Positions 7,675-17,055 of a stretch of DNA of 64,000 bases are shown piece by piece. The notes under the pieces are model-generated. The model saw only the letters and a program-made list of their open reading frames with translations. It did not search any database and was not told where the DNA came from. Position numbers and translations under genes: made by a program. Position 1 is the stretch's first letter. Each line of letters opens with the position of its first letter. The stretch is from Natrinema sp. HArc-T2 (lineage in GTDB: Archaea > Halobacteriota > Halobacteria > Halobacteriales > Natrialbaceae): assembly GCF_041821085.1 (NCBI RefSeq), contig NZ_JBGUAZ010000001.1, positions 186,001 through 250,000 on the forward strand, given 5' to 3'.

Positions 7675-8163
7675 TTAGCTGACGATTTCGAGTACAGCAG
7701 TGTCAACGAGTCCACGAGCAGCAGCATCCGAACGCGTGAGGCCGACTGCGATCGTGTACCGACCGGGGTCGACCGGTCGCCACTCGTCGTCGCTGATCTG
7801 AATTCGCTGGTGCCACTGCCGCCGGAATCGTTTGCGTTCACGCCGCGCGAACGAAAACGCGGCGGGCCGGTCGGGCACCGTCCGTGGTACCTGTGAGTCC
7901 TCACGATGGCCGTCGACGGTCCAGTACCAGTAGTTCGGCGAGTCCGTCCGAATCCGGATCGGGATCGGGAGCCGATTGTGGAACGTGACCGTGATGTCGA
8001 CCGGTTCACCGGGCTCGTAGCGCCGTTTGTCTGTCGACACGTCGACGTTGATCGCCCGATGGCGCAGCGCCCGCGGCGTCACCGCGTAGCTGAGTGCTGC
8101 CCAGTCGATCGTTCGCGTGCGCTCGTCGGCCGCGCGCTCGCGTGGATTGGCGTCTCGAGTCAT
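7675..8163 (-). CDS. Unknown protein, last gene of the peptide ABC transporter operon
   Basis: This 162-residue protein has no signal peptide or membrane helix. From residue 38 onward it looks like a beta-sandwich: NVDVSTDKRRYEPGEPVDITVTFHN and later PGRYTIAVGL are typical of Ig-like or BsuPI-like domains, which carry the EPG...VTFHN pattern. The first 35 residues are charged and probably helical. Its start overlaps the stop of the upstream ATPase gene by ATGA, so it is co-translated with the transporter, but it is not a standard subunit. I do not recognise a function. Confidence 0.75.
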   Translation of the reverse strand: MTRDANPRERAADERTRTIDWAALSYAVTPRALRHRAINVDVSTDKRRYEPGEPVDITVTFHNRLPIPIRIRTDSPNYWYWTVDGHREDSQVPRTVPDRPAAFSFARRERKRFRRQWHQRIQISDDEWRPVDPGRYTIAVGLTRSDAAARGLVDTAVLEIVS

Positions 8164-9473
8164 TCGCCAGTCGATCGTGTTCCGGAGTCGGCGGTATCGT
8201 CTGTGAACCGGTCGTCGAATCGATGGCAGGCGATCGGATGGGATGCTGGTCCCGACGTTAGCACCGGTTCGGTCGTTTCACAGGGCGTCTCGAACGTCGA
8301 TGCGAGTCGAGTCCGTGCGGTCTCGAGGTTTCCATCCGCGGCGGCCTCGAGCGCAGCCGCGAGCGCGTCGTTGGCGTCCGGATCGGAGAGCCGTCGGGGG
8401 ATGTTGTAGGCGTCCCGGATCGTCGCCGGGTCGGTCTCGCGCTCGTCGGCGTGTGGAAGCAGCGCCGCGGGTCCGGCATCGGCGTCCGTCTCGGCGAGGC
8501 GGGTTCGCAACGACAGTACGGCGCGGAACTCGTCGTCGGCGAGGTCGAACGGAGCGGGCGGAAGTACCCGCTGACAGCGCGTGTGGAACGGACAGCCTGA
8601 CGGGATGTCGGTCGGCGAAGGAGCGGCTCCCTCGAGGACGATCCGACCGCCGTCCCAGCGGGGATCGGGTTCGGGGATCGCCGACAGCAGCGCCTCGGTG
8701 TAAGGATGGGACGGGGCGGCGAACACTTCGGCGGTCGTCCCCGTTTCCACGAGCCGGCCCAGATACATGACGGCCACCCGGTCGGCGAGGTGCTCGACCA
8801 CCGAAAGGTCGTGGCTGATCAGTAGGTAGGAAAGTCCGAACTGATCTTGCAAGTCGGCCAGCAGGTTGAGAATCCCAGCCTGAACCGAAACGTCAAGCGC
8901 GGACACTGGCTCGTCGCAGATGAGCACCTCGGGCTCGGCGGCGAGTGCGCGGGCGATGCCGATCCGCTGGCGCTGCCCGCCGGAGAACTCGTGGGGGTAT
9001 CGGGTCGCGTGACCGGCCCGTAGTCCGACGGTCTCGAGCAACTCCCGAACCCGTTCGTCGCGACGCGCCGGCGGTACGACATCGTGAACGTCGAGCGCTT
9101 CGCCGACGATCTCGGCGACGGTCAACTGCGGATTCAGACTCGAGAGGGGGTCCTGAAAGACGTACTGGATCTCGCTTCGCAGCTCCCGAAGCTCGGCTCG
9201 AGAGCACGCGGTGAGGTCGGTCCCGCGGTAGGTGACCGAGCCGGCGGCGGGCTCGAGCAGTCCGACGAGCGTCCGACCGAGCGTGGTCTTGCCACAGCCG
9301 CTCTCGCCGACGAGGCCGACCGTCTCGCCGGCGTGAAGCTCGAGGTCGACGCCGTCGACCGCCCGAACCGTCTCGCCGCGCCCGAGCAGTCGATCGAGAA
9401 CCCCGTCGGCAGTGGTATAGTGTGTCGAGAGGGCGTCAGCGCACAACAGCGGCTCGTCATCGCTGCCGGTCAT
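8160..9473 (-). CDS. Peptide-type ABC transporter ATP-binding protein (DppF/OppF-like)
   Basis: Residues 1-250 form an ABC ATPase with Walker A GESGCGKTT, the signature FSGGQRQRIGIARAL, and Walker B ICDEPVSALD. The oligopeptide-transporter C-terminal region follows (IPSGCPFHTRCQRVLPP), where cysteines may bind an iron-sulfur cluster in some family members. A further 110 residues, including many Glu and Asp, end near PCETTEP...ACHRF, so the 437-residue protein is longer than bacterial OppF. It would couple ATP hydrolysis to uptake through the two permeases. It overlaps both neighbours by ATGA. Confidence 0.92.
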   Translation of the reverse strand: MTGSDDEPLLCADALSTHYTTADGVLDRLLGRGETVRAVDGVDLELHAGETVGLVGESGCGKTTLGRTLVGLLEPAAGSVTYRGTDLTACSRAELRELRSEIQYVFQDPLSSLNPQLTVAEIVGEALDVHDVVPPARRDERVRELLETVGLRAGHATRYPHEFSGGQRQRIGIARALAAEPEVLICDEPVSALDVSVQAGILNLLADLQDQFGLSYLLISHDLSVVEHLADRVAVMYLGRLVETGTTAEVFAAPSHPYTEALLSAIPEPDPRWDGGRIVLEGAAPSPTDIPSGCPFHTRCQRVLPPAPFDLADDEFRAVLSLRTRLAETDADAGPAALLPHADERETDPATIRDAYNIPRRLSDPDANDALAAALEAAADGNLETARTRLASTFETPCETTEPVLTSGPASHPIACHRFDDRFTDDTADSGTRSTGE

Positions 9474-10549
9474 CGCGGCTCACCCTGCTGTTTCCGGTCA
9501 CGACAGTTACTGTCCGCATCGTCCCGTATTTTCACCTCGTAGTCTAAGCCAGTCTCGAGATCACCGGTGTACTCGAGGCAGGCGGCGGCGTGGGTGTCGG
9601 GGTCGCCGTCGGTCGGACGACCCGTCGCCGGTTCGACCAGCGCTGGCCGCTGTCTGGCACAGCAGTCTTCCGCGTACGGACAGCGGGGGTGGAACCGACA
9701 GCCTGTCGGCGGGTCCACGAGATCGGGGGTCGTTCCCGGAATCGTTGGCAGGCGCGCGCGGTCGTCTCCGAGTCGCGGCGTCGCGGCCAACAGCCCGACG
9801 GTGTAGGGGTGTTTGGGGTCGTAGTACAGTTCGTCGACCGGCGCGCGCTCGACGAGTTCGCCGGCGTACTGGACCAGCACCCGATCGCAGAGTTCGGCGA
9901 CGACGCCGAGGTCGTGAGTGACCAACTGGACTGCCGTCTCGGACTCCGCTGCGAGCTTCGCGAGCAACTCGAGGATTCCGGCCTGTACCGTCACGTCGAG
10001 GCCGGTCGTCGGCTCGTCGCAGATGAGCAACGCGGGATCACAGGACAGCGCCATCGCGATGACGGCCCGCTGTTGCATCCCGCCGGAGAACTCGTGGGGG
10101 TAGTCCGAATATCGTGTGGCCGGCTTTGGGATACCAACGCGCTCAAGGTGGCCGATCGTCCGATCGCGGGCCTCGCGGTCGGTGACGTCCTCGTGGGCGC
10201 GGATCGTCTCGGCGATCTGTTCGCCGACGGTGTAGACGGGGTTGAGTGCCGCGCCGGCGTCCTGAAAGACCATCGCGATTTCGTTGCCCCGGATCGCCCG
10301 GAGATCGTCGCTCGAGAGTTCGCGAACCTCGCGACCGCGAAAACGGATCTCGCCGGCGACGATCTCGCCAGCCCCGTCGAGCAGGCGGAGCAACGCGCGG
10401 CTCGCGGCGCTTTTGCCGGCACCGCTTTCGCCGACCAGCCCGACCGTCTCGCCGGCGCGGATCTCGTAACTGATGCCGTCGACTGCTCGGACCACACCGT
10501 CCTCGGTGTAGAACTGAACGACCAGATCTTCGACCTCGAGCAGCGCCAT
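9470..10549 (-). CDS. Peptide-type ABC transporter ATP-binding protein (DppD/OppD-like)
   Basis: From ATG 10549 the product is 359 residues: Walker A GESGAGKSA, signature FSGGMQQRAVIAMAL, Walker B ICDEPTTGLD, then the oligopeptide-transporter C-terminal motif TGCRFHPRCPYAEDCCARQRP. The frame is open further upstream, but MALLEVEDLVVQFYTEDGVV is the standard N-terminus and its ATG shares a base with the stop of the permease gene. With the next gene it forms the usual pair of non-identical ATPases. Confidence 0.93.
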   Translation of the reverse strand: MALLEVEDLVVQFYTEDGVVRAVDGISYEIRAGETVGLVGESGAGKSAASRALLRLLDGAGEIVAGEIRFRGREVRELSSDDLRAIRGNEIAMVFQDAGAALNPVYTVGEQIAETIRAHEDVTDREARDRTIGHLERVGIPKPATRYSDYPHEFSGGMQQRAVIAMALSCDPALLICDEPTTGLDVTVQAGILELLAKLAAESETAVQLVTHDLGVVAELCDRVLVQYAGELVERAPVDELYYDPKHPYTVGLLAATPRLGDDRARLPTIPGTTPDLVDPPTGCRFHPRCPYAEDCCARQRPALVEPATGRPTDGDPDTHAAACLEYTGDLETGLDYEVKIRDDADSNCRDRKQQGEPR

Positions 10550-11673
10550 CAGCGCATCCGCCTCCGATCGTCGCTGACGTTTCGGTCGGGCTCGAGTGCG
10601 TCGGTGATGCCGTCGCCGACGAGGTTGATCGCCAGGACGAACAGGAAGATCGCAAGCCCGGGGAAGACAGTGATGTGCCAGTCGCCGCGCAGCAGCGAGC
10701 TGCGGCCCTGTGCGAGCATCGCCCCCCATTCGGCGCTGCCGGGCTCGAGGCCGAGGCCAAGAAAGCCAAGCGCCGCCGCGGTGAGCACGACCGTGCCGAC
10801 GTTGAGCGTCGCCTGGACGACGACGGGCGCGACGGCGTTCGGCACGACGTGTCGCCGGATGATCGTCCGATCGGGGACGCCGAGCGCCCGCGCGGCGGTG
10901 ACGTACTCGCGTTCGCGCACCGAGAGGACTTCGCCACGCAACAGCCGGGCGTAACCCACCCAGCCAGTGACGGCGAGTGCCACCACCACCGTCCAGTAGC
11001 CGCTCCCGAGGATCGGCACCGGCTCGAGGATCGGAACGATCGCGATCGCGAGCACAAGAAACGGGAAGGCGTAGAGCACGTCGACGACCCGCATGATCGC
11101 CTCATCGATCCAGCCGCCGAAATAGCCGGCGATCGCCCCGAGCGGAACGCCGACACAGAGCGCCAGTCCGACGGCGACGAGCCCGATGCTGAGCGTATAC
11201 CTGCCGCCGACGAGCACCCGCGAGAACTGATCGCGGCCCGCCCAGTCGGTTCCGAACGGATGTGCCGGCGAGGGCGGCGCGTTCGCCGGCCCGACGAACG
11301 TCGCGGACGGATCGTAGGGTGCAAGCGAGAACGGCTGGAGCGTGATCGTCACCTCGGTGATCGAAATCTCGATCGGTCGGGCGAAGACCGCGAGCAGTGC
11401 CATGCCGACGATCACTGCCAATCCGGCCATCGCCGACCGGTTCCGACGGAACCGCCGCCACGCGTTCTCGAGGCGGCGTCCCGGCTGACGGCGCGTCGAT
11501 CGGTTCGTCGACGCTGTTGCCGCGGTTGTCGTCGGGCTGGCACCGGAATCCGCCGGCGTCGTGCGGTCTGTGTCGTAGTCACTACTCGCGTCGTCGTCCG
11601 ATCGGTTTGCATCGGCATCGTCGAAGCCGACGATTCGAATCCGGCCACGTTCGGTGGTGTGTCGGTCGTTCAT
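10549..11673 (-). CDS. Peptide-type ABC transporter permease (DppC/OppC-like)
   Basis: This 374-residue permease has a cytoplasmic N-terminal extension of about 75 residues, rich in Asp, Thr and Ser, that is longer than in bacterial DppC. The first helix follows (MAGLAVIVGMALLAVFA), then HPFGTDWAGRDQFSRVLVGG, the OppC-type hallmark, and the EAA loop EYVTAARALGVPDRTIIRRHVVPN that contacts an ATPase. It lies two bases after the DppB-like gene and one base into the DppD-like gene. Confidence 0.93.
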   Translation of the reverse strand: MNDRHTTERGRIRIVGFDDADANRSDDDASSDYDTDRTTPADSGASPTTTAATASTNRSTRRQPGRRLENAWRRFRRNRSAMAGLAVIVGMALLAVFARPIEISITEVTITLQPFSLAPYDPSATFVGPANAPPSPAHPFGTDWAGRDQFSRVLVGGRYTLSIGLVAVGLALCVGVPLGAIAGYFGGWIDEAIMRVVDVLYAFPFLVLAIAIVPILEPVPILGSGYWTVVVALAVTGWVGYARLLRGEVLSVREREYVTAARALGVPDRTIIRRHVVPNAVAPVVVQATLNVGTVVLTAAALGFLGLGLEPGSAEWGAMLAQGRSSLLRGDWHITVFPGLAIFLFVLAINLVGDGITDALEPDRNVSDDRRRMR

Positions 11674-11675
11674 CG

Positions 11676-12623
11676 TCAGTATCGAATGCGTGGGTCGAGG
11701 ATCGCGTAGACGACATCGACGAGTAAGTTCGCGAGGACGATCGCGACGGCGATGAGCAGGACGATCGCCTGAATGAGGGGGTAGTCCCGTCGGAGAATCG
11801 ACCGCACTAGCAGCCGTCCCATCCCCGGCCAGGAGAAAATCCCCTCGACGACGACGGCACCGTCGATCAAGAACGCAAGCTGGAGGCCGGCGATGGTGAC
11901 GACCGGTAGCAAGGCGTTTCGCAGGACGTGTTTCAGGACCACCGTTCGCTCCGGGAGCCCCTTCGCACGCGCGGTCGTGACGTATGGCGCATCGAGCTCC
12001 CGTCGCATCGACGATCGGAGCAAGCGCATGACGAGCGCAGTCGCGGCGGTCCCCAGCGTGATCGTCGGTAACACGAGGAACTTCGCCGTCGCAATACTTG
12101 CGAGCGGTGCGTCCGGTGGGATAACCCGAACCCAGCCGAGCCGAACGCTGAAGACGAACAACAGGATGAGACCGAGCCAGAAGTTCGGTGTCGCAATGCC
12201 GGCCAGCGCAGCGACTCGCCCGAGTTCGTCAGCCGGTTCGCCAGCCTTGACGGCAGTGACGATCCCAGCCGGGATTCCGATCGCGAGCGCGAGTAGCCAC
12301 GCCGCCCCGCCGAGTGCCAGCGTCGCCGGGAGTCGGCTGCCGATCGTCGCCGTCACGTTGCGACCGGTGACCGGCGACTCGCCGAACTCGAGGGTGACCG
12401 CATCACGCACCCACAACAGGTACTGGTTCCAGACCGGCTGATCGAGGTGATACTCGGCTCGGATCGCCGCTTCGGTCGCGGGGCTGACGTCTCGGAAGCC
12501 GACGATCGCGTCGACCGCGTCACCCGGAAGCAGGTGGACGAACAAAAACGTAAGTGCGCTAACGCCGACTAAGACCGGCACTGTGACCGCCAGCCGCCGA
12601 CTCACGTATCGACCGAGCGACAT
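11676..12623 (-). CDS. Peptide-type ABC transporter permease (DppB/OppB-like)
   Basis: The 315-residue protein starts MSLGRYVSRRLAVTVPVLVG, has six predicted membrane helices and contains the DppB-type features LLPGDAVDAI near residue 32, DQPVWNQYLLWV, and the EAA loop PYVTTARAKGLPERTVVLKH. It pairs with the DppC-like permease to form the channel. It starts five bases after the solute-binding protein gene in the same operon. Confidence 0.94.
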   Translation of the reverse strand: MSLGRYVSRRLAVTVPVLVGVSALTFLFVHLLPGDAVDAIVGFRDVSPATEAAIRAEYHLDQPVWNQYLLWVRDAVTLEFGESPVTGRNVTATIGSRLPATLALGGAAWLLALAIGIPAGIVTAVKAGEPADELGRVAALAGIATPNFWLGLILLFVFSVRLGWVRVIPPDAPLASIATAKFLVLPTITLGTAATALVMRLLRSSMRRELDAPYVTTARAKGLPERTVVLKHVLRNALLPVVTIAGLQLAFLIDGAVVVEGIFSWPGMGRLLVRSILRRDYPLIQAIVLLIAVAIVLANLLVDVVYAILDPRIRY

Positions 12624-12628
12624 CAGTG

Positions 12629-14275
12629 TCAGTTGGGACGAACGTACTCGTCTGCGATTTCTTGCTGAAACGATTCGCCCGCGTAGTCCTCGAGCAGCGG
12701 CGAGATTGGCGTATATGCCACCTGTCCGATCTCGTGATAGACGTTCTCGAGGATGCGCTCGCGTGGAATCAACATGTTACAGCCGCGGCGAACGGACGGC
12801 TCGGAAAACGGTGGGAGATAGCAGGGGTAGAGAATCATGTCGAAGCCGCCACTGACACGACGACCGACGCCATATGCGTCGTCGCGTTCGAAGTCGGCGA
12901 GACTCGCCGACGGCAGGTTGTAACTGAAATGAAGGTCACCGCGCTCGAGCGCTGCCTGTCGGGACGATTGCTCTGTGATGATCTCGAGCGTGATGGTTTC
13001 GATCGGCGCGGTCGCGGGGACCGCCTCGTCGCCTGTAAACCAGTGGTCGTCGAATCGGCGCAGTCGCCAGTGGTTGCCGGACTCGTGTTCGACGAACCGA
13101 TACGGGCCGGTCCCGATCGGTTCTTCCTGAAGATCGAGTTCGCCGTCGATCGCGGCCAGCGGGACGATCGCGACGTTGAACAGTGCTGTCTCGAACGGGC
13201 CGTACTCCCGCTTGCAGTTGATCTCGATCGTGTGGTCGTCGATGATCGTACTGCTCTCGTACCAGTCGTAGACGTCGCTCTCCCGTGTCGTTCCCTCGTA
13301 GCGTTGGAACGAGCGCTTGACGTGGGTGGCGGTAAGTTTCTCGCCGTTGTGAAACTGGACGCCTTCGCGGAGGGAGAATCGATACGTCGTCGCGTCGCGT
13401 TGCTCCCAGTCGGTCGCGAGCATCGGCTGGACCTCGCCATCGAAGTCGACACCGACGAGTTGCTCGTAGACGAGCGCTGTCGCCTGACTCGAGACGGTAC
13501 CGTTTATCTTGACAGGGTCGTAGTTGGAGACATCGCTGCCGAGATCGCCGACGAACTCAGTTTCGTCCTCGAGATCGGTGTAGACGCCAGCCCAGGGGGC
13601 GTACACCGCGTAGTACGAGCCCGGCTGCAGCGGGTACGTCTGCCAGTCGCTGACGACATCGCCATCCCAGACGTGGGTGGCCTCGCGAAACCGGACGAAC
13701 GACGCTGGCGAGTCTGCAACCAGTTCTTGTTGGAGATTCCGATAAATCTCGACACGGTCGTCGGAGTCGGTCTCGGTGAGTCCGGCGTCGATGTACTCGT
13801 CGACGGTTTCGTTTTCGTAGTGGCCGACGTTGAGCCCGTTTGGCGTCTGGTTCTCCGAGTGAAAGAGCATGGCGACGTAGTTGCTCGGGTCCCAGCCGCC
13901 GGTCCAGCTCGAAACGAAGATGGCGTTTTCCTCCGTGTCGGCCGCAGAAAGCATCGACTCGATGTGTGAGCCGAAGTCGCGCGATTCGATCTCGACATCA
14001 AAAAAGTCGGTTCCGTTGAGCGTGCTCTGGAGGAGCTGTGCGACTCGATTTCGCTCTTGGTCCTGCGTGATGGCGATCGTCGTTTCGAACGGTGGCTCGA
14101 TGTCCGCCGTGGCAAACCCCTCCTCGATCAGTTCCTCGGCCGGGCCGTCGGCCGTGGCGCTATCGAAGCTGAGACAGCCCGCCAGCCCTGCCACCCCGAC
14201 AGCACCTGCACGCGTCAGGAATGAACGCCGCCGCAACCGATTGCGTTCATTTGCCCCGACACTATTCTCTGCCAT
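12629..14275 (-). CDS. Peptide-type solute-binding lipoprotein (SBP family 5) with circularly permuted domains
   Basis: A Tat lipoprotein signal is clear: RRRSFLTRAGAVGVAGLAGC with C34 as the lipidated cysteine. The mature part has SBP family 5 motifs, but in swapped order. Residues about 46-225 (AEELIEEGF, QERNRVAQLLQSTL, WTGGWDPSNYVAMLF, DDRVEIYRNLQQELVADSP) are what normally forms the C-terminal third. Residues about 246-548 (VYEQLVGVDFDGEVQPMLA, YRFSLREGVQFHNGEKLTA, EEPIGTGPYRFVE, LIPRERILENVYHEIGQVAY) are what normally comes first, and the protein ends where the usual AEELI segment should begin. The length of 548 residues is normal. The gene leads the transporter operon. Confidence 0.9.
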   Translation of the reverse strand: MAENSVGANERNRLRRRSFLTRAGAVGVAGLAGCLSFDSATADGPAEELIEEGFATADIEPPFETTIAITQDQERNRVAQLLQSTLNGTDFFDVEIESRDFGSHIESMLSAADTEENAIFVSSWTGGWDPSNYVAMLFHSENQTPNGLNVGHYENETVDEYIDAGLTETDSDDRVEIYRNLQQELVADSPASFVRFREATHVWDGDVVSDWQTYPLQPGSYYAVYAPWAGVYTDLEDETEFVGDLGSDVSNYDPVKINGTVSSQATALVYEQLVGVDFDGEVQPMLATDWEQRDATTYRFSLREGVQFHNGEKLTATHVKRSFQRYEGTTRESDVYDWYESSTIIDDHTIEINCKREYGPFETALFNVAIVPLAAIDGELDLQEEPIGTGPYRFVEHESGNHWRLRRFDDHWFTGDEAVPATAPIETITLEIITEQSSRQAALERGDLHFSYNLPSASLADFERDDAYGVGRRVSGGFDMILYPCYLPPFSEPSVRRGCNMLIPRERILENVYHEIGQVAYTPISPLLEDYAGESFQQEIADEYVRPN

Positions 14276-14453: not shown

Positions 14454-15023
14454 TTACGAATCGCCTTCCTCGTCGATGATGACGACCTCGCCATCGACGA
14501 CATCGACGTTGATCAATGTCTTGACGTCGTAGCCGGCGTCGTCGACCTTGTTCTCCCCGCCGACTTTCTTGATGACAGCGACAGTGTCGATGACCTCCGC
14601 GCCGATGTCGTCCAGTGCGGTGAGCACTGCTGCGAGCGTCCCGCCCGTCGAGAGCACGTCGTCGATGACGAGCACGCGCTCGCCCTCGCGGACGTCGTTG
14701 ATGTACATCTCGTTTTCCGAGTAGCCGGTCTGCTGAGAGATCGCGACCTCGTCTTCGAGTCCGTACTCACGCTTCCGGATGACCGTCAGCGGGATGTCGG
14801 TCATCAGCGAAACCGCCGTCGAGATGTGAATGCCCATCGCCGCGGGCGTGACGATCCGATCGACGTTCTCGAGCTCGGCCTTGCGGATGATCCGGATGAC
14901 GATCTCGCGCAGCAGGCCCGGCTCGAGTTTGGGGAGCCCGTCGCTGATCGGATGGACGAAGTAGTGATAGCCGTTCTTCTCGATAATCGGCGCATCGAGG
15001 AGGGACTGCTTGAGCTGATCCAT
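14454..15023 (-). CDS. hpt: Hypoxanthine/guanine phosphoribosyltransferase
   Basis: The 189-residue cytoplasmic enzyme carries the PRPP-binding loop [18 protein letters not shown] near residue 118 and the substrate-side motifs [13 protein letters not shown] and [14 protein letters not shown]. It belongs to the archaeal Hpt/adenine-PRTase-like family that transfers ribose-5-phosphate from PRPP to a purine base in salvage. The exact base preference (hypoxanthine and guanine, or adenine) cannot be settled from sequence. It is monocistronic, with 125 bases to the upstream gene. Confidence 0.92.
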
Positions 15024-15149: not shown

Positions 15150-15767
15150 TCACTCGGTGTAGCTGAGCTCCGGTGGCTGGTCACCGTGGCCCAGCCGCAT
15201 GTTCCGCTCGTAGTAGATGTGGGCGACCGCCGTGGCCGTGAACGTGCCCGCGATGACAGACAGCCAGGTCAGATTCGAGAGGTGGGTAAGCGGATAGATC
15301 TCCAGCCAGAGCGCGGCGGCCAGCGCACAGCTAATCGCCCCCATCGAGAGATACAGCTCCCGCCACGCGAACTCCCGACCGGGGACGATCTCGAGGTAGA
15401 CGCTGATGTCTCGCGTTCGGTCGGTCGACTCGATGAGGCCCCGATCGGAGTCGAAGCGGAGAATGCCGGTCGAGTCCATCTTCGGGAGGTGCGTCTGCTG
15501 GAGCGTCGTATAGACCCGTTTTCGCTGTTCGGGTGTGACTCCCTCGAGGGTCGTGTCGTACTCCCAGGCGGCGACCTGCTGGGCGAGGTCGCCGAGTTCG
15601 ACTGGCCGATCGTCCTGTTTGAGATACTGCACGACGTAGCGACGTCGCTGGTTCCGAAGGACTTCGAAGACGTCGCCTTTCGAGAGCGGTTCGTCAGTCG
15701 CGTCGTGGTCGTCACCGTCCGTCGTCGAGGCCTCGTCAGTCCGTAGCTGTTGTGCCATTTCAGTCAC
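15150..15767 (-). CDS. Membrane-anchored winged-helix protein (DUF7344-like)
   Basis: The N-terminal 120 residues contain a winged-helix unit: DVFEVLRNQRRRYVVQYLKQ, then ELGDLAQQVAAWEYDTTLEG and QRKRVYTTLQQTHLPKMDST. Two hydrophobic helices follow (about residues 140-158 and 165-185) and then a short cytoplasmic tail. This layout is very common in haloarchaea and usually annotated DUF7344; such proteins are presumed transcription regulators tied to the membrane. It is closely similar in plan to the proteins at 44998 and 45670. Confidence 0.82.
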   Translation of the reverse strand: MTEMAQQLRTDEASTTDGDDHDATDEPLSKGDVFEVLRNQRRRYVVQYLKQDDRPVELGDLAQQVAAWEYDTTLEGVTPEQRKRVYTTLQQTHLPKMDSTGILRFDSDRGLIESTDRTRDISVYLEIVPGREFAWRELYLSMGAISCALAAALWLEIYPLTHLSNLTWLSVIAGTFTATAVAHIYYERNMRLGHGDQPPELSYTE

Positions 15768-15882: not shown

Positions 15883-17055
15883 TTAGCTCTCTGTCGAGCC
15901 GGCTCCGAGCATCGCTGCGATCGAGTCGGCGATTTCGCCGCCCAACCCAGCTTTCGTCCCCTCGTAGCGAGCGGCGTCGTCCGCGTGGACGAGCAGGGCG
16001 CGTGTCGTCTCCGATCCCATCACGCTCGCGTCGTTGGCGACGACGAAGGCGAGGCCAGCCCGCTCCAAGGTCCCTCTAGCCTGTTCGATCATCGCCCCCT
16101 CGTCACCGGAGGTTTCGGTCTTGAAGCCGATGATCGGCAGCTCGGGATACTCGGCGCGGATCTCGTCGATGAGCTTCGGTGTCGGCTCGAGCTCGAGCGT
16201 GAGATCCGTCCCCGAACGCAGCTTTTCGTCGCTCGCCTCGACAGTATAATCGCTGATAGCGGCCACAGAGACGAGCGTGTCGGCATCCGCGCAGGCCTCG
16301 CGGGTAGCCGCGAGCATCTCCGCGGCGCTTTCGACCTGCTGGACTGTAGCGTAGGGCACGTCGGGACCATCGTGGACGAGAGTCACGTCCGCGCCGCGGA
16401 CGTAACAGGCCTGTGCGACCGCACGGCCCATCTTCCCCGACGAGCGGTTCGTGATGACGCGAACAGGGTCGATCGCCTCGCTTGTCGCTCCGCTGGTCAC
16501 GACGACGTGCTCGCCCGCGAGCGGTCGGTCGCCGGCCGCGCGGGCCACATCACAGACGATCGCCTCCTCGCTTGCGATCTTGGCCTTGCCTTCTTCGATG
16601 CGCGGATCGACGAAGTCGACGCCCCAGTCGGCGACGGTGTCGATCGCCTCGAGCACGCCGGGGTGGTCGTACATCGGTTCGTGCATCGCGGGGGCGATCA
16701 CGACCGGCGTGTCCGCGCCGAGTGCGGTCGTCGCACACGTCGTCACGGGTGTGTCGTCGACGGCACCGGCGATCTTGCCGACGGTGTTGGCCGTCGCCGG
16801 CGCGATGAGCAAGACGTCGGCCCAGCCGTCGTACCCACAGAGGTCGACGTGTTCGACGCTGCCCGTGATCTCCGTGACCACGTCGTTGTCAGTGGCGAAC
16901 TCGACGGCCCAGGGGTGGATGATCCCCTGGGCACTGCCGGTCATCACCCCGCGAACTGTGGCACCCTGGCGTCGCAACTCGTGGGCCAGTTCGACCGTCT
17001 TGACGGCCGCGATCGACCCCGTCACTCCGAGCGCGACGTTGACTCCCTCGAGCAT
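15883..17055 (-). CDS. coaBC: Bifunctional phosphopantothenoylcysteine decarboxylase / phosphopantothenate-cysteine ligase
   Basis: The 390-residue protein has an N-terminal flavoprotein decarboxylase domain (MLEGVNVALGVTGSIAAVKT; PAMHEPMYDHPGV around residue 120) and a C-terminal ligase domain beginning VVVTSGATSEAIDPVRVITN and SSGKMGRA. Together they join cysteine to 4'-phosphopantothenate and decarboxylate the product in coenzyme A synthesis. The length is typical for CoaBC. It follows the MoCF-type gene on the same strand with a 66-base gap. Confidence 0.95.
   Translation of the reverse strand: MLEGVNVALGVTGSIAAVKTVELAHELRRQGATVRGVMTGSAQGIIHPWAVEFATDNDVVTEITGSVEHVDLCGYDGWADVLLIAPATANTVGKIAGAVDDTPVTTCATTALGADTPVVIAPAMHEPMYDHPGVLEAIDTVADWGVDFVDPRIEEGKAKIASEEAIVCDVARAAGDRPLAGEHVVVTSGATSEAIDPVRVITNRSSGKMGRAVAQACYVRGADVTLVHDGPDVPYATVQQVESAAEMLAATREACADADTLVSVAAISDYTVEASDEKLRSGTDLTLELEPTPKLIDEIRAEYPELPIIGFKTETSGDEGAMIEQARGTLERAGLAFVVANDASVMGSETTRALLVHADDAARYEGTKAGLGGEIADSIAAMLGAGSTES

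Follow-up and report, generated by a model that had tools for sequence, protein, structure and literature searches.

The window, a 64,000-nucleotide stretch of the Natrinema sp. HArc-T2 genome, contains on its minus strand a gene that runs from 14275 (start) to 12629 (stop) and whose open reading frame translates to a solute-binding protein (SBP) of 548 residues. The translation begins with a Tat signal peptide (residues 1–33; 14177..14275, minus strand) bearing an RRRSFL motif, followed by a lipobox, LAGC, with its cysteine at C34 (14174..14176, minus strand), both motifs being identified by eye. The gene is the first of a complete OppB–OppC–OppD–OppF operon that is conserved alongside it, all on the minus strand: an OppB/DppB-type permease (11676..12623; BPD_transp_1, Pfam PF00528 and PF19300), an OppC/DppC-type permease (10549..11673; OppC_N and BPD_transp_1, Pfam PF00528 and PF12911), an OppD-type ATPase (9470..10549; ABC_tran and oligo_HPY in Pfam, with OppD/DppD as best NCBIfam match, under its cut-off) and an OppF-type ATPase (8160..9473; ABC_tran and oligo_HPY in Pfam). 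Lipoprotein signal and operon partners together are what marks the receptor of an Opp/Dpp ABC importer. Upstream, also on the minus strand, lies an archaeal purine phosphoribosyltransferase gene (14454..15023; NCBIfam HPT_Archaea, 249 bits against a cut-off of 200), a neighbour conserved in synteny. An upstream scan for sigma-70-type promoters and terminators, a type of scan unsuited to archaea, found none.

The two halves of the encoded protein stand in the reverse of the canonical order. Residues 46–225 (13601..14140, minus strand) correspond to the closing segment of a canonical SBP family 5 (SBP5) protein, comprising the AEELI helix, the rest of lobe II and the last part of lobe I, and are placed first, as judged from a C-block HMM and from alignment to the best solved relative, PDB 5u4o. 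Residues 246–548 (12632..13540, minus strand) correspond to the opening segment, lobe I and then the first part of lobe II, and are placed second. The join between them (residues 226–245; 13541..13600, minus strand), delimited by comparison with the termini of canonical proteins L166 and L041, leads from the former C-terminal strand through a linker of a few residues into the former N-terminal strand. The chain ends in EYVRPN, immediately ahead of where the AEELI helix would come. The initial annotation had proposed a circular permutation from motifs alone, and every motif that it quoted, from the Tat motif RRRSF and the lipobox with C34 to the EYVRPN end, is present in the translation at its place.

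SBP_bac_5 (PF00496), the cluster C family of DppA, OppA, NikA and GsiB, is the sole Pfam match of the window protein. In native order this match (8e-57, 193.5 bits) falls into two stretches, with residues 281–537 on profile positions 1–260, whereas rotation of the sequence gives a single contiguous match to positions 1–366 of 368 at 202.4 bits; both scores exceed the gathering cut-off of 32.4 bits, and the match is colinear with the profile only once rotated. Window residues 247–531 align to 52–336 of 5u4o and residues 57–200 to 357–493, blocks that are out of sequence order and therefore mark the halves as swapped, and the rotated protein aligns continuously to 5u4o 91–493, spanning both lobes. 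Because rotation yields one higher-scoring Pfam match and a continuous 5u4o alignment, the permuted order is real, and because the two stretches are swapped we class the protein as a circularly permuted variant rather than a plain SBP_bac_5 member. These results confirm a circular permutation of an SBP family 5 lipoprotein, with the segments assigned as first proposed; both halves belong to one family, SBP_bac_5, and not to different ones, and the native linear alignment scores below the rotated one. The NCBIfam equivalog cut-offs for DppA, OppA and NikA were not reached (best NF045468, 144.5 of 600; DppA, 65.9 of 1005), the native order depressing whole-protein scores against these models. 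A permuted-order model was absent among the NCBIfam matches of the window protein, a permuted-order alignment was absent among the solved-structure matches listed, and no dedicated family model for permuted SBP5s was found. Because Pfam and NCBIfam models are silent on permutation, automatic annotation and domain maps can mistake such proteins for split or truncated ones.

Orthologues of the gene are present in 25 of the 29 genus genomes searched, the window's own counted and one being split, and the named records that carry them are Natrinema and Haloterrigena. The halves have the same order, at 63–89% identity, in 23 other genus genomes, some of them single-contig chromosomes; together with the split copy, these genomes exclude the assembly rearrangement that the initial annotation had considered. 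The split copy, L040 (G025:C5:154978-156592), belongs like the window gene to what we call group A and is broken into two frames by a frameshift close to where the halves meet, a draft error or decay. Although it speaks for an assembly error, a chimera of two unrelated genes or a pseudogene, the order is repeated in many independent assemblies, single-contig chromosomes among them, the frames are intact at 63–89% identity, the operon is intact and the two halves share a nearest relative; the chance that the window gene is such a product is negligible, and for the permuted family as a whole the idea is already refuted. The nearest canonical protein is the same for both halves in group A (L166), group D (L043) and group E (L204), which identifies these three as permutations and not chimeras, and a chimera of two genes was rejected on the same ground. 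The window protein is 52% identical to its best canonical relative in the N-half and 33% in the C-half, and the common nearest relative of both halves is clearest in other members of its group.

Permuted SBP5s are widespread. In the host genome three of the five SBP5 genes are permuted; the two besides the window gene, L049 and L050 (G000:C1:478992-483504), belong to group C and lie close together on the same strand. A set of 12 haloarchaeal genomes, drawn from several families, has about 74 SBP5 genes, of which 19 are permuted, a count made from result tables with a few genes unclassified; 10 of the 12 genomes have at least one. About a quarter of the sampled haloarchaeal SBP5s are thus permuted, in one of the largest receptor families of prokaryotes. 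When a profile of permuted proteins was run against 292 haloarchaeal genomes, about 150 proteins were among the matches listed, and almost all of these aligned colinearly across the permuted junction. Beyond archaea, permuted SBP5s occur on alphaproteobacterial replicons (Nitratireductor L150 and Ketogulonicigenium L151), in Bacillota (25 colinear matches among the matches listed, in 21 of 299 genomes, the fetched ones being confirmed) and rarely in Actinomycetota (L206, L211), so that a permutation confined to haloarchaea was rejected. L150 and L151 fall in one clade with haloarchaeal genes, suggesting transfer between domains. Their operons adjoin M28 peptidase genes; one also has a racemase gene, the other hydantoinase/oxoprolinase genes. 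A scan of viral contigs for further homologues found little.

The cut sites of the permuted groups are close together and distinct. In group A the cut lies immediately ahead of the helix that starts xxAEELI, a place through which the canonical relative L166 runs as ...FQAEMREKYQGYDPERARELLADGF. Group D is cut after the AEELI helix (end, ERAEELLEQVAADN), and group E, from Bacillota, is also cut after it, right behind ...KQLLREAGY. In groups B and C, found in haloarchaea and bacteria, the cut comes slightly further on, after ...AGYxWDDDGRL in the GYxWDDxGRL stretch. Every cut falls within a few tens of residues, in one helix–strand segment of lobe II. The lower domain of VcCBP comprises residues 240–488 (PMC10667598); residues 242–528 of L150 align to 45–335 of VcCBP 1zty, and residue 528 adjoins the L150 cut. 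In AliD, lobe 2 comprises residues 297–582 and both chain ends lie in domain I (PMC11192437). By these published boundaries (PMC10667598, PMC11192437), lobe I would contain the native termini, as the initial annotation had stated, and lobe II the new ones. Separately, SBPs of group D, canonical and permuted alike (L045, L042, L043, L169), have several tens of extra residues inserted in the N-half.

To count origins, we built a maximum-likelihood tree of 71 proteins from the two blocks placed in canonical order (426 columns). On this tree the permuted state needs six changes, of which at least four are forced by well-supported branches; none of the bootstrap trees (0%) needs only one, and a quick tree of 132 proteins gives eight changes of state. 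The approximately unbiased (AU) test rejects all permuted proteins as a single clade (p = 8e-35) and groups A and D together (p = 5e-51), and does not reject A alone (p = 0.27) or D alone (p = 0.22); the groups were named after the tree and cut sites had been viewed, and these p-values are best read jointly with the cut sites. On the combined strength of the tree, the AU tests and the differing cut sites, the sequences require no fewer than four separate origins of permutation (A, D, E and B/C), in archaea and bacteria and at nearly the same spot. The alternative, one ancient permutation (within haloarchaea or across all prokaryotes) from which some lineages later returned to the canonical order, gains some support from the strong clustering of permuted genes on the tree, shuffles never scoring as low, and from one big B/C clade that covers haloarchaea, alphaproteobacteria, Bacillota and Actinomycetota. 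Set against it are both AU rejections, the need for reversion to restore the native termini repeatedly, and cuts that lie before the AEELI helix in A, after it in D and E and in the GYxWDDxGRL stretch in B/C. A tree alone is blind to gain versus loss, and it is the differing cut sites that argue for separate gains over reversions. We regard a single origin as very improbable, and the idea was rejected by the tree and AU tests. The initial annotation's family-wide haloarchaeal variant of one origin is likewise not borne out, since canonical and permuted SBP5s coexist, permuted forms are also found in bacteria, and no fewer than four independent events are required.

Natural circular permutation through tandem duplication and truncation is known in other protein families, and this is the most likely route here. 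An in-frame tandem duplication would come first; copy one would then lose its first half, after the signal, and copy two its second half, so that both ends are trimmed. The join in group D retains the spacer that usually follows the lipid anchor (L045 ...DLSDLSEGGTLSLAVGAN vs L043 ...DFADLQEGGTLRGAVGAN), and such conservation of the old N-terminal spacer (DLSDLSEGGTL) as an internal linker is as the duplication and truncation route predicts. Groups A and E have the former C-terminus fused almost directly to the former N-terminus, and no tandem-duplicated intermediate was present among the fetched genes. SBP5 permutation resembles the other natural cases in this putative duplication–fusion–truncation route and in a fold that is presumably retained, and differs from them in having occurred at least four times in one family, at one short segment, in secreted receptors of ABC importers. 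Engineered circularly permuted periplasmic binding proteins and biosensors also exist; they share the moved termini, but are laboratory constructs where the SBP5 case is natural. No report of natural circular permutation in SBP5, oligopeptide-binding or periplasmic binding proteins or in haloarchaea was found in open-access full text, and PMC2588589 mentions both topics in unrelated places. The window gene represents a conserved permutation within a known family; it exemplifies a recurrent pattern that is apparently undescribed, and its interest rests on this recurrence and not on a new function.

We propose, with a probability of roughly 87%, that the window gene encodes a working SBP lipoprotein of an Opp/Dpp-type ABC importer, derived from canonical SBP family 5 by circular permutation. 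It is like DppA, OppA, NikA and GsiB in the sequence of both halves, in lipoprotein export and in the Opp-type permeases and ATPases of its operon, and unlike them in its swapped halves and in termini and a lipid anchor predicted to lie in lobe II instead of lobe I. With both native termini expected in lobe I, and both new ones in a helix–strand segment of lobe II, the protein probably keeps the ordinary two-lobe fold and its Venus-flytrap motion, and the lipid anchor would then hold lobe II instead of lobe I. A loaded receptor would hand its ligand to the adjacent OppB and OppC permeases in the usual way; an ordinary fold and a receptor role in the importer of its own operon are thus most likely. 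AlphaFold2 with the five closest orthologues gave a mean pLDDT of 35, from a shallow alignment of few close sequences, and AlphaFold with added N-half fragments of canonical relatives gave 43, again from a shallow alignment, and for this reason we read the fold from sequence alone.

One genomic slot holds receptors of more than one topology. CoaBC and the purine phosphoribosyltransferase precede the window SBP, and in most group A genomes the phosphoribosyltransferase gene immediately precedes that of the SBP. It likewise immediately precedes two canonical SBPs, L042 and L043, and two D-permuted ones, L169 and L178, each followed by homologous OppB and OppC, so that the slot CoaBC, phosphoribosyltransferase, SBP, OppB, OppC is filled by a canonical receptor (L042, L043), by an A-permuted one (the window protein, L173) or by a D-permuted one (L169, L178). 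That one slot accepts SBPs that are canonical, cut before the helix or cut after it argues that permutation leaves the basic job intact. The initial annotation had raised a new ligand geometry, which finds no support in a slot filled by canonical and permuted SBPs beside related permeases. A different geometry with a changed permease interface, or halves that pair between chains as a domain-swapped dimer, might follow from moved termini that alter the tethering of the lobes, and the W-x-x-D motif, the aspartate of which binds the amino end of the peptide in Opp-type proteins (PMC11192437), is WTGG in the window protein and WYTD in canonical L078, L080 and L084. The motif differs in many canonical members as well, however, the few-residue join links segments whose ends share a lobe in canonical proteins, and canonical and permuted versions serve the one slot; we give these alternatives very little weight beside an ordinary fold and receptor role.

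With its three receptor topologies beside related permeases, the haloarchaeal slot is a natural experiment on tethering and topology in ABC import, and it is well suited to the question of why a single site has been circularly permuted repeatedly. One possibility, which we consider doubtful, is adaptive re-tethering, in which permutation at this hot spot recurs because it moves the termini, and in lipoproteins the anchor too, from lobe I to lobe II; presentation of the receptor to the permease would then be altered with its partners unchanged. Some permuted alphaproteobacterial members (L150) are apparently soluble periplasmic proteins without a lipobox, which speaks against a universal anchor-based cause. 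The purine phosphoribosyltransferase neighbour invites the testable guess that the ligand might be a purine compound. This gene (14454–15023), with 88–98% identity between group A genomes, forms together with CoaBC (Dfp, 15883–17055) a conserved neighbourhood of the SBP operon whatever the SBP topology, and between the two genes at 15150–15767 lies a DUF7344 gene that is present or absent by genome in the same neighbourhood.
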